From: Streptomyces sp. NBC_01233
GTDB lineage: Bacteria > Actinomycetota > Actinomycetes > Streptomycetales > Streptomycetaceae
Assembly (NCBI RefSeq): GCF_035989305.1
Contig: NZ_CP108514.1
Span: 868,001 to 932,000 of the forward strand
Length of the DNA stretch: 64,000 nt
Direction: 5' to 3'
Each line of letters begins with the position of its first letter. Position 1 is the stretch's first letter. The notes under the pieces were generated by a model, which saw nothing but the letters and a program-made list of their open reading frames with translations, searched no databases and was not told where the DNA came from. The translations under genes were made by a program, and so were the position numbers. Shown in pieces: positions 3,741 through 15,558 of this stretch.

Positions 3741-3932
3741 ATGGCTGACGAAACCGACACCCCGCAGGACGAATCCCCGGCCGATGAGGCCAAGCGCAAG
3801 TTCCGGGAGGCCCTGGAGCGCAACGCGGCGAACGCCCAGTCCCAGCAGGCGCACCAGAGCCGGGCGAAGGTCCAGGGTGCCAGCAGCGGCCCCGGCGGCA
3901 AGAACAAGAAGGTCCGCCGCAAGACCGGCTGA
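3741..3932 (+). CDS. DUF5302 small charged protein
   Basis: A 63-residue hydrophilic protein with an acidic N-terminus (ADETDTPQDESP), a helical middle rich in Ala, Glu and Arg and a basic Lys/Arg tail (GGKNKKVRRKTG). This layout is that of the DUF5302 family, common in Streptomyces and of unknown role. The start is fixed by a strong ribosome site, AGGAGG at 3731-3736, five bases before the ATG. It is transcribed divergently from the ferredoxin reductase, so the iron box between them might touch both promoters. Confidence 0.8.
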   Translation: MADETDTPQDESPADEAKRKFREALERNAANAQSQQAHQSRAKVQGASSGPGGKNKKVRRKTG

Positions 3933-13096: not shown

Positions 13097-13708
13097 ATGG
13101 CCGGACCACTGTGGCCCCGCACTCGGCGGGGCTCGACCGATGAGGTACTGATCAAGTCGGTGTACGAGGAGCACGGTCACGCCCTGCTCGCGTACGCCAC
13201 CCGGCTGACCGGGGACCGGGCCGCCGCCGAGGATGTCGTCCAGGAGACGCTCATCCGGGCCTGGCGGCATTCCGAAGTCCTGGTCAACGGAAAGGGTTCG
13301 GTGCGCGGCTGGCTGCTCACCGTGACCCGCAACATCATCACCGACCGCTACCGGGCCAAGGCCGCGCGGCCGCCGGAGGTCTCCGGGGCCTCGGCCACGC
13401 CTCCGGTGGAGGCGGACCACGCCGACGCGGTGGTGGACAGCATGACGGTCCTGGGGGCCCTCGACCAGCTGTCGCCGGAACACCGTGACGTCCTCAGGGA
13501 GTTGTACTACCGGCAGCTCAGCGTGGCGGAGGCGGCCGACGCCCTCGGCATCCCGGCGGGCACGGTCAAATCGCGTTCGCACTACGCGCTCAAGGCCCTG
13601 CGCGACGTCTTCAGGGACCAGCGTTCCAAGGACAGCAGCTTCAGAGATGGCAAACGACCGGGCGGGCCGCCCCAGCGGCCGGCCGGACTGCGTGAGGTGG
13701 TGGCATGA
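13097..13708 (+). CDS. ECF RNA polymerase sigma factor
   Basis: Group 4 sigma factor, 203 residues. Region 2 is visible as HALLAYATRLTGDRAAAEDVVQETLIRAWRH (about residues 28-58 in pieces) with the RGWLLTVTRNIITDRYRAK stretch, and region 4 as LDQLSPEHRDVL, YYRQLSVAEAADALGIPAGT and VKSRSHYALKALR. It overlaps the next gene by four bases (ATGA), the usual coupling of a sigma factor with its anti-sigma factor. GAGAGGG upstream serves as ribosome site. The target promoters are unknown. Confidence 0.93.
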   Translation: MAGPLWPRTRRGSTDEVLIKSVYEEHGHALLAYATRLTGDRAAAEDVVQETLIRAWRHSEVLVNGKGSVRGWLLTVTRNIITDRYRAKAARPPEVSGASATPPVEADHADAVVDSMTVLGALDQLSPEHRDVLRELYYRQLSVAEAADALGIPAGTVKSRSHYALKALRDVFRDQRSKDSSFRDGKRPGGPPQRPAGLREVVA

Positions 13709-14430
13709 ACCGGCAGCGGCACGAGGAGGAACTGCTCGGCCCGTACGTGCTCGGCGTCCTGGACGCCGAGGAGGTCCGCCGGATCGAGGATCACATGAGC
13801 GGATGCGTGCAGTGCCGGGAGGAGTTGGCCGCGTTGCGCGAGATGGAAGCGGCACTGGGCGAGGTGCCCGAGGAGGCGTTCCTCGACGGACCGCCGCAGG
13901 GCGGGGACCTGCTGCTCCAGCGCACCCTGCGGCAGATGCGCGGTGAGCGGGCCGGTGCCGAGCGCCGGCGCGCGGGGTTCGCGGGACTGGCCGTGGCCGC
14001 CTCGCTGGCCGCCGTGTTCTGGGCCGGTACGGCACTGGGCGCCGGCGATCCCGATTCCGTCGCCCTGCCCGCGCCGCCGTCCCCGACGGCTTCGGCGGAC
14101 CCTTCGCCGCCGCCCGCCGGGACCAAGCTGCTCTCCGCGACCGATCCGGGCACGGGCGTGCGGATGACCGTGCAGATGACGCCGGCCGCCAAGTGGGTGC
14201 GGTTGCACGCGGCGGTCACGGGAGTGCCGCGGGGCGAGCGGTGCCGGCTGATCGTGGTCTCCAAGGACGGTACGCGCACGACCGCGGGCGGCTGGGTCGT
14301 GGGCGGCCAGGAGAACGGCGAGGGCAAGGGCGCCTCGCTGGACGGTTCGGCGGCGGTGGATCCGGCCAACGTCAAGGCGGTCCTCGTGGAGAACGAGGCG
14401 GGCCGGACCTTCGTGTCCGTACCGGCCTGA
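13705..14430 (+). CDS. Zinc-finger anti-sigma factor (membrane-anchored)
   Basis: A 241-residue single-pass membrane protein expected to hold the upstream ECF factor inactive. The N-terminal anti-sigma domain carries the zinc-binding H-x3-C-x2-C (HMSGCVQC, residues 31-38); a membrane segment (GLAVAASLAAVFWAGTALGA) lies near residue 105; a Pro/Ser linker leads to an extracytoplasmic beta domain (VRMTVQMTPAAKWVRLHA) like that of RskA-type sensors. It is translated from an ATG overlapping the sigma stop codon. A terminator hairpin follows. Confidence 0.9.
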   Translation: MNRQRHEEELLGPYVLGVLDAEEVRRIEDHMSGCVQCREELAALREMEAALGEVPEEAFLDGPPQGGDLLLQRTLRQMRGERAGAERRRAGFAGLAVAASLAAVFWAGTALGAGDPDSVALPAPPSPTASADPSPPPAGTKLLSATDPGTGVRMTVQMTPAAKWVRLHAAVTGVPRGERCRLIVVSKDGTRTTAGGWVVGGQENGEGKGASLDGSAAVDPANVKAVLVENEAGRTFVSVPA

Positions 14431-14442
14431 CCGGGGTGTGAC

Positions 14443-14475
14443 GGAGCCCGGGAGCATATCCAGTTCCCGGGCTCC
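14443..14475 (+). terminator. Hairpin terminator after the anti-sigma gene
   Basis: Perfect 11-base arms GGAGCCCGGGA and TCCCGGGCTCC around an 11-base loop, 13 bases past the anti-sigma stop; no clear U-tract, as is common in Streptomyces. Confidence 0.8.
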
Positions 14476-14525
14476 TGCGTGCCACCCAATTGCGCACACC
14501 GGCACGTTTAAGAGTCGCGGATCAT

Positions 14526-14603
14526 TCTGAGATCGACGTGTTCTACCTTTGAACTACCGCGCCACGAGAGAGGCGCAGAGGGGACTTGAACCCCCATCCA
14601 TCG
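14526..14603 (-). tRNA. Candidate permuted tRNA gene, second copy (Gly-like D-arm)
   Basis: On the minus strand the 3' half comes first. Anticodon-stem 3' strand CGATG (14603-14599), short variable loop, T-arm GGGGG-TTCAAGT-CCCCT (14595-14579), acceptor 3' strand CTGCGCC and T73 (14578-14571); then seven spacer bases (14570-14564); then acceptor 5' strand GGCGCGG (14563-14557), T8 A9, D-arm GTTC-AAAGGTA-GAAC (14554-14540), A26 and anticodon-stem 5' strand CGTCG (14538-14534). The acceptor pairs over all seven positions (one G-U) and the anticodon stem over five (one G-U). T8, A14, G18, G19, A21, T54-C56, A58 and C61 are all present. No CCA is encoded. In the normal order no acceptor can form. 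The anticodon is unresolved: loop ATCTCAG would give CUC, but splicing could change it. Confidence 0.65.
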
Positions 14604-14664
14604 ATGATCGTCCACGCTCGGTCGATCCGGTGTTCGGCGGCGAATACTGAGACTGGAGCGAGAA

Positions 14665-14752
14665 TCTGAGATTAACGGGGCCGCCTCTACCGGCTTGGGC
14701 CACCCCGGCACGCAATGCCGGGGGAGGGATTCGAACCCCCAACTGACACCCC
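14665..14752 (-). tRNA. Candidate permuted tRNA gene, first copy (possible UAA anticodon)
   Basis: Minus strand, 3' half first: anticodon-stem 3' strand GGGGT (14752-14748), variable loop GTCAGTT, T-arm GGGGG-TTCGAAT-CCCTC (14740-14724), acceptor 3' strand CCCCGGC and A73 (14723-14716). After six spacer bases (14715-14710) the 5' half follows: acceptor GCCGGGG (14709-14703), T8 G9, three-pair D-stem GCC/GGC around a 12-base D-loop with A14, A15, G18, G19 and A21, G26, then anticodon-stem GCCCC (14681-14677) and loop GTTAATC. The acceptor pairs perfectly; GCCCC/GGGGT pairs with one G-U. Tertiary pairs T8-A14, A15-T48, G18-T55, G19-C56, T54-A58 are all possible. If the halves join inside the loop the anticodon reads UAA (leucine), but the short variable loop is not leucine-like. 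Confidence 0.7.
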
Positions 14753-14779
14753 TGTTCAGCTTCAACATCAGTTTCAGCT

Positions 14780-14793
14780 TGCGCTCTCGCGCA
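14780..14793 (-). other. GAGA-tetraloop hairpin upstream of the permuted tRNA pair
   Basis: TGCGC-GAGA-GCGCA on the minus strand is a perfect five-pair stem closed by a GNRA tetraloop. It abuts the larger hairpin at 14794-14815 and lies 27 bases before the first tRNA 3' half, so it may be part of the leader of that transcript. Confidence 0.6.
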
Positions 14794-14815
14794 CCCCCTG
14801 CAGACGTACAGGGGG
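14794..14815 (-). terminator. Hairpin after the 14827-15558 gene
   Basis: Seven-base arms CCCCCTG and CAGGGGG with an 8-base loop, starting 11 bases after the stop of the minus-strand hypothetical gene. It may terminate that gene or, stacked with the adjacent tetraloop hairpin, form a processing structure ahead of the permuted tRNAs. Confidence 0.6.
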
Positions 14816-14826
14816 AGATTTCGAGG

Positions 14827-15558
14827 CTACCTGAACAGGTAGCCGAACACCGCGTCCCCGACCCGCTGGTCGGTGACCTCGGCGCTGTTGGCCTCCTCGC
14901 GGGCGAACTTGACGGCCTGCTGGAGCTTCTCCACGCGGTCGAGCAGCTCGTTGACCCGGCGGGCGGGCAGGGCACCGGAGAACTTCACGGTCGTCCAGTA
15001 CCCGACCGGGACGTCCTCGTAGTAGACCTCGACCTGCGCCGGGTGCTTCTCGGTGGCCTCGGCCTTGACGTGGTTGCGCGGCACCTTCTTGGTACGGATC
15101 GTGCGCACCGCGTCCGTCTTCCACGAGTCCGTCGACGGGTCGAGGTTCCAGGACTCGGAGGCGTCCAGCACCGGCAGCTTCCGCACGAAGGTGTGCATGT
15201 CCGTCAGCTGCTTCTCCAGGAAGAGCAGGTACGGCACGGGCACCTGCGCCAGCAGGACCGTCCCGTCCACGACGACGTCGGCGGCCGCGGTGCGGTTCGC
15301 CCAGTCCTTGGTCGCCGTCACGTCGAACAGCCGCGTCAGGGTCCCCGCGGTCGCCCGCAGCACGTCCTCCGCCTTGACCTGCACCCGCGTGGACTCGGGC
15401 GGCAGCTGCTCGCCCTCCTCGTCCTTGGGCTGGTAGGTCCGGGAGATGCCGGCCAGCAGGGCGGGCTTCTGGACGTCGTGGTGAGCTTGCGTGAGCTCCT
15501 GGAGGGACTTGGACTTGACGCCCTTTTCCACTGCGATGATCTGATTCAGCTTCGGCAC
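14827..15558 (-). CDS. Conserved hypothetical protein
   Basis: A 243-residue soluble protein that I do not assign to a function. It begins MPKLNQIIAVEKGVKSKSLQ and has a mixed alpha/beta composition, a Trp/Asp-rich centre (LDASESWNLDPSTDSWKTD) and a C-terminal coiled-coil-like helix (VNELLDRVEKLQQAVKFARE). Proteins of this look are widespread single-copy genes in Streptomyces. It is the nearest gene upstream of the permuted tRNA pair on the same strand, so read-through could supply their transcript. No signal peptide or membrane segment. Confidence 0.7.
   Translation of the reverse strand: MPKLNQIIAVEKGVKSKSLQELTQAHHDVQKPALLAGISRTYQPKDEEGEQLPPESTRVQVKAEDVLRATAGTLTRLFDVTATKDWANRTAAADVVVDGTVLLAQVPVPYLLFLEKQLTDMHTFVRKLPVLDASESWNLDPSTDSWKTDAVRTIRTKKVPRNHVKAEATEKHPAQVEVYYEDVPVGYWTTVKFSGALPARRVNELLDRVEKLQQAVKFAREEANSAEVTDQRVGDAVFGYLFR

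Follow-up and report, generated by a model that had tools for sequence, protein, structure and literature searches.

We analyzed a 64,000-nucleotide stretch of DNA from Streptomyces sp. NBC_01233 (contig NZ_CP108514.1, positions 868,001 to 932,000), which we refer to as the window. On its minus strand lies a gene for a 243-amino-acid DUF7873 protein (14827-15558; Pfam PF25283), and directly 3' of this gene, on the same strand and separated from its stop codon by 10 bases, lies a conserved predicted RNA element of approximately 375 nucleotides (14443-14816). The element is defined by an alignment of related loci, a consensus structure and counts of base pairs, and its ends, as drawn from the alignment, are predicted ones. 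ARAGORN detects neither a transfer RNA (tRNA) nor a transfer-messenger RNA (tmRNA) in the window, and an Rfam search of the window yields nothing at the gathering score. The element is likewise absent from Rfam 15 at the gathering score, and we found no description of it in the open-access literature.

The element contains two tRNA-like modules whose arms stand in permuted order. This arrangement had been noted, twice on the minus strand and at the correct coordinates, in a preliminary description of the same DNA, and the order in both modules is T-arm, acceptor 3' strand, loop, acceptor 5' strand, D-arm. Module 1 (14740-14683; helices 8-10, 99.8-100% paired, with an invariant D stem) is composed of a T-arm at 14740-14724, an acceptor 3' strand at 14723-14717, the loop ATTGCGT at 14716-14710, an acceptor 5' strand at 14709-14703, and a D-arm at 14700-14683. 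Module 2 (14595-14540; helices 16-18, 100% paired) is composed of a T-arm at 14595-14579, an acceptor 3' strand at 14578-14572, the loop TCTCTCGT at 14571-14564, an acceptor 5' strand at 14563-14557, and a D-arm at 14554-14540. As the preliminary description had also reported, both acceptor stems have all seven of their pairs (CCCCGGC/GCCGGGG in module 1 and CTGCGCC/GGCGCGG in module 2), and the conserved tertiary-contact bases, TTC.A in the T-loop and GG in the D-loop, are present in both modules. The acceptor loops comprise 7 bases in module 1 and 8 bases in module 2, counting position 73, which is A in module 1 and U in module 2; CCA is present in neither loop.

The structure of the element was derived from an alignment of the window with 80 genome loci, which were chosen by their DUF7873 gene only and of which none was dropped. 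The loci were aligned by sequence, the consensus structure was built on the 69 rows in which both modules occur, and pairs were counted on all 81 rows; because it was computed from 69 rows of its own alignment, the consensus structure is biased towards that alignment. Across the 81 rows, 93.6% of 9010 cells are paired, as compared to 40.5-46.7% when the partners are slid by 1-3 columns. Double-sided changes occur in 54 of 115 pairs, while shuffled alignments have a mean of 37.0 and none of 500 shuffles reaches the observed value. The acceptor stem of module 2 is paired without exception among the 81 sequences, and 6 of its 7 pairs are compensated by double-sided changes; the T stem of the same module is likewise paired in 81/81 sequences with 4 of 5 pairs compensated. 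The weak spots of the structure are helix 3, which is 70% paired, and helix 7, which lies directly below module 1 and is 71% paired. Module 1 has been lost in 12 of the 81 loci, and module 2 and the 3' part of the element are retained there.

In the consensus structure of these 81 loci neither module has an anticodon loop, and the strands that flank the modules pair into long stems. Below module 2 lie helix 15 (7 pairs, 5 compensated) and helix 14 (10 pairs, 8 compensated), which run on into helices 13-11; below module 1, a long stem formed by helices 7-5 takes the place of the anticodon arm. What had been taken for a five-pair anticodon stem is thus the start of a longer stem without an anticodon loop (helices 14-15). 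With a long stem beneath each module, the element follows the plan of a Y RNA. It had also been proposed that the stems form only when the 3' half is joined behind the 5' half; the arms form as hairpins within the linear transcript, and no joining of halves is needed. A fold of the single sequence 14428-14812 has a z-score of -3.2 and is broadly similar to the consensus, with differences in module 1, where the acceptor-hairpin loop is tighter and the D-arm is another one.

The remainder of the element, read 5' to 3' on the minus strand, begins with two small hairpins (14816-14795 and 14793-14780; helices 1-4, 14780-14816). The CTGA-rich 5' strand of the domain 1 stem follows at 14748-14778 (helices 5-7), and its 3' strand, which the alignment and pair counts place at 14646-14681, includes a conserved CTCGCTCCAG stretch. 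The domain 2 stem (helices 11-15) has a 5' strand with a conserved CCGGATCGACCG at 14599-14641 and a 3' strand with a conserved unpaired CTTAAACG at 14481-14538. A 3' terminal hairpin with a conserved loop around GGATA (14443-14475; helix 19) shows double-sided changes in 8 of its 13 pairs and is a possible transcript end; no T-tract terminator was found.

The element is tightly linked to DUF7873. Relatives of the protein, of which there are at least 7949, were gathered on the basis of the protein only, from viral contigs, bacterial genomes, and phage and plasmid records. The viral sample consisted of 18 loci plus the best 80 of 373, and the genome sample consisted of 30 loci of 93 plus the best 80 of at least 583. 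Modules were sought in 216 stretches downstream of DUF7873, which included the window and seven phage or plasmid records and of which 191 are distinct in their first 600 bases, using a detector that requires a T-arm, a 7-base acceptor hairpin and a D-arm. At least one module was detected at 186 of the 191 distinct loci and two or more at 143, as compared to 1/191 for the antisense strand and 0/382 for dinucleotide shuffles. The argument of the preliminary description that two independent cases side by side make chance unlikely therefore stands as regards chance, which these controls exclude, but not as regards independence, since the modules belong to one RNA that is tied to DUF7873. Of the five loci missed by the detector, three (L156, L192 and L214) have no visible RNA within the inspected 420 bases and one (L198) is degenerate. 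At the fifth, L144, the RNA element is apparently split by an insert with an open reading frame in the acceptor region of module 1.

We also constructed a covariance model of domain 2, designated R1, from 39 sequences and searched for it in 199 Streptomyces genomes. An R1 match on the same strand, 19-344 nucleotides downstream of the gene, is present in each of the 93 genomes that carry DUF7873, and the match covers the full model (positions 1-151) in 92 of them and positions 21-128 in the other; 6 of the 93 carriers contributed sequences to R1, and genome G184 has a DUF7873 fragment only. The preliminary description had suggested looking for conservation and compensatory change in relatives, and both are borne out by these matches and by the pair counts above. 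No full-length match was found in the 106 genomes without DUF7873 among the matches listed (to near E 5e-9). Some R1 match occurs in 189 of the 199 genomes, again among the matches listed, and the shorter matches in the genome of NBC_01233 itself (about 36-118, 25-123 or 45-108 of the model) fall on Y RNAs and on a tandem tRNA pair.

Over residues 1-242, the DUF7873 protein of the window matches PF25283 with a score of 402.9 bits, where 27 is the cut-off. The Pfam entry describes the function of the family only as uncharacterised, and no paper naming PF25283 was found in the open-access literature. An AlphaFold model of the protein (mean predicted local distance difference test score 94.8, predicted template modelling score 0.70) combines long helices with two long strands (151-166 and 175-190), and places an invariant K158 on the first long strand and an invariant H172 in the turn between the two. 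Structure searches with this model returned no convincing relative. Given the linkage, we infer that DUF7873 binds RNA.

Among named phage and plasmid records that were examined separately, modules were detected in 11 of 12, down to approximately 31% identity in DUF7873, and some of these records have one module only. The records with modules include Arthrobacter phage Racecar, Gordonia phage GodonK and Rhodococcus NiceHouse, as well as Pseudanabaena Pam2 and PA-SR01, Klebsiella KpLz-2_45, Vibrio D517 and Rhizobium RHph_TM21B; no module was detected in Microcoleus phage My-WqHQDG. Phages with DUF7873 infect hosts of several phyla, namely actinobacterial, cyanobacterial and proteobacterial ones. 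In a phylum-wide draw of 246 genomes, DUF7873 occurs in 6 only, all of them Streptomyces, and names found in the searches for relatives place it in other actinobacterial genera as well. The neighboring genes vary: a homolog of the anti-sigma gene of the window is present at 13 of 80 genome loci and one of its HEAT-repeat gene at 4 of 80. A tRNA gene lies in the flank outside the element at 41 of 80 viral loci, as compared to 2 of 80 genome loci. Because of the host range of the phages, the variable neighbors and the tRNA genes that flank the viral loci, it appears that the DUF7873-RNA pair probably arose in phages, was spread by them, often among tRNA genes, and was later retained in Streptomyces chromosomes.

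ARAGORN makes a tRNA call at 16 of the 80 genome loci, and outside the element in only 2. Within the RNA element it predicts weak tRNAs, such as Val (aac), as at loci L068, L072 and L074 around 3755-3847, and such calls are a likely source of mis-annotation. In the window, the zf-HC2 (anti-sigma type) gene is at 13705-14430 on the plus strand, convergent with the RNA element, and a neighboring frame on the same strand, at about 12.9-13.7 kb, resembles an extracytoplasmic function (ECF) sigma factor.

CCA is absent from the loops of the window and frequent in the acceptor loops of the family. Of 331 modules, 106 have it at positions 74-76 exactly, as compared to 59 of 3027 at all other loop offsets, and N73-CCA in these 106 modules is located precisely where a mature tRNA ends. 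At loci with at least two modules, A73 is found in 117 of 143 first modules and U73 in 99 of 143 second modules. The genome loci have CCA in 40 of 105 first modules and 0 of 88 second modules, while viral and phage loci have it in 44 of 81 first modules and 22 of 55 second modules. Where a distinct viral contig has at least two tRNA genes outside the element (26 contigs), CCA is encoded in 24 of 45 modules and in 14 of 210 tRNA genes (25/47 and 14/224 in the unfiltered count); the p value of about 3e-12 for this contrast is too optimistic, since the contigs are related. Because the mimic encodes CCA where the tRNA genes of the same phages leave it to the CCA-adding enzyme, the comparison suggests that CCA in the mimic is under selection. 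RNase P (ribonuclease P) recognizes RCCA, according to PMC9433436, and is the most natural candidate for reading the encoded CCA.

To the observed modules, their covariation, the long stems in the place of the anticodon arms and the close association with DUF7873, we add the following proposal. The element is probably a tRNA mimic, built of two permuted tRNA-like modules without an anticodon loop, that is complexed with DUF7873 and yields no tRNAs; its likely role is that of a tRNA decoy or scaffold and not that of a tRNA. It would be transcribed together with or after the DUF7873 gene and bound by DUF7873 at its conserved stem loops, and both modules, each an elbow plus an acceptor, would be presented to tRNA-handling enzymes such as RNase P, tRNA-modifying enzymes, PNPase and perhaps EF-Tu. 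RNase P is predicted to act at the acceptor loop, which has N73-CCA at one end and G1 at the other; cleavage there would turn some copies into a nicked RNA in two or three pieces whose ends resemble those of tRNA. A bolder version, which we regard as tentative, would be an RNA-protein machine invented by phages in which RNase P opens both N73-CCA loops of a single transcript, leaving a multi-piece, chargeable RNA without an anticodon that its tRNA folds hold together, that is controlled by DUF7873 and that has been retained by Streptomyces.

Several other explanations were weighed against this proposal. The modules could belong to an aminoacylated, tmRNA-like RNA, in which RNase P and 3' trimming open the loops and the CCA is charged for a role in translation or ribosome rescue. 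The placement of N73-CCA fits such an RNA, as do a U at position -1 in 164 of 331 modules and the finding that 82 of 142 first modules are nearest to tRNA-Leu, and passages of PMC3978253 provide a precedent in the two-piece permuted tmRNA. However, the pair types show no G3-U70 in any of 81 module 2 or 69 module 1 sequences, and ARAGORN recognizes no tmRNA in the window, where no search for a tag reading frame was made; we consider this explanation unlikely. The preliminary description concluded that these are genuine tRNA genes in circularly permuted form, of the kind found in red algae and some archaea; the transcript would then be circularized and cut to give two decoding tRNAs. The order of the halves, the seven-pair acceptor stems, the tertiary bases and, in part of the family, N73-CCA would agree with this, but the strands that should form an anticodon loop lie instead in 7- and 10-pair covarying helices, as in the arrangement of a Y RNA, which makes that conclusion very improbable. 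It is hardly credible that the modules are relics of tandem tRNA genes, in which the 3' half of one gene and the 5' half of the next imitate a permuted tRNA. Both YrlA and R1 do match such a pair elsewhere in the genome (C1:3131874-3131986, locus L218), which is tRNA-Asn by reading of its sequence. Yet that R1 match covers model positions 36-118 only, as opposed to positions 1-151 in 92 of 93 DUF7873 elements, and the element lacks anticodon arms and has stems that covary. The tandem tRNA-Asn pair itself (L218, 1517-1598, minus strand; YrlA score 40.6 bits) is a trap for scans that look for permuted tRNAs.

Given the common plan, the element could instead be a Ro-binding Y RNA whose modules tether PNPase or other enzymes to Ro/TROVE, with DUF7873 as an accessory. 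In a permissive Rfam search, the modules match YrlA (RF02553) at 30.1 and 27.3 bits, short of the gathering score of 69, and the genome does encode Ro. However, that gene (529 amino acids; C1:6684831-6686257, loci L001 and L217) is 5.8 Mb away and adjoins two Y RNAs of its own, which also fall below the YrlA cut-off (40.9 and 37.8 bits), so that the score separates the two kinds of RNA poorly. When flanks of up to 3 kb were searched by tblastn with the TROVE protein of this genome, which a divergent TROVE would escape, a homolog was found at none of the 80 genome loci and at 1 of the 80 viral ones. Among the 199 genomes, the presence of DUF7873 is independent of that of TROVE (both in 49, DUF7873 only in 44, TROVE only in 46, neither in 60; p = 0.20). 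At 21 distinct TROVE places in Streptomyces we detected 14 modules, two of them probably spurious and the remainder at 10 of the places; most Ro-linked modules have an upstream GGTGCG[A/C]AGG...TACTTC motif and acceptor loops of 3-5 bases, and none of the 14 has CCA at positions 74-76. This motif was not seen in the DUF7873 element on inspection by eye. The DUF7873 element is not a Ro locus, and we regard a Ro-binding role as quite unlikely. Because the Y RNAs of this genome score below the cut-off and similar modules occur at 10 of 21 TROVE places, RF02553 may miss Y RNAs of Streptomyces. One viral contig (L013/L205) has DUF7873, the twin RNA and a TROVE homolog nearby, and because of this contig a Ro link in some phages is possible.

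If the proposed mimic is real, a decoy or scaffold role would represent an RNA-protein partnership of a new kind. The analysis connects a large family of uncharacterised proteins with a dedicated RNA, and finds the pair in phages whose hosts are actinobacteria, cyanobacteria and proteobacteria. DUF7873 would thereby gain a testable role in a contest over tRNA during infection, and the contrast in CCA between the mimic and the tRNA genes of the same phage allows a direct test of recognition that depends on RNase P or on CCA. The data also suggest that permuted tRNA mimicry reaches beyond Ro/Y RNA particles.

Three known systems resemble the element. A tmRNA has a tRNA-like acceptor end and no anticodon arm, and the G3-U70 alanine identity pair defines it. 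The two-piece form has its acceptor end in permuted order, as does the element, which differs in lacking G3-U70, in not being recognized as tmRNA, in having two modules and in its link to DUF7873. Permuted tRNA genes of algae and archaea, as described in passages of PMC3978253, likewise place the 3' half ahead of the 5' half, and a short sequence separates the two at the acceptor end. Unlike these genes, the element has no anticodon loop and nothing that points to splicing into a cloverleaf; the halves of its modules do not rebuild one with an anticodon arm and loop, and helices 14 and 15 run into the long stem. The bacterial Y RNA YrlA shares the T, acceptor and D arms in circularly permuted tRNA order on a long stem, and passages of PMC11472068 and PMC8394870 describe the tRNA-like domain of Y RNA as a circular permutation of tRNA. 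In contrast to YrlA, the DUF7873 element has two modules in one RNA, DUF7873 rather than Ro as its gene partner, other stem motifs, and acceptor loops that have at least 7 bases and in many cases N73-CCA. The plan of the modules is the known plan of Y RNAs, and it is the partner, the doubling, the stem motifs and the CCA-bearing loops that are new to us.
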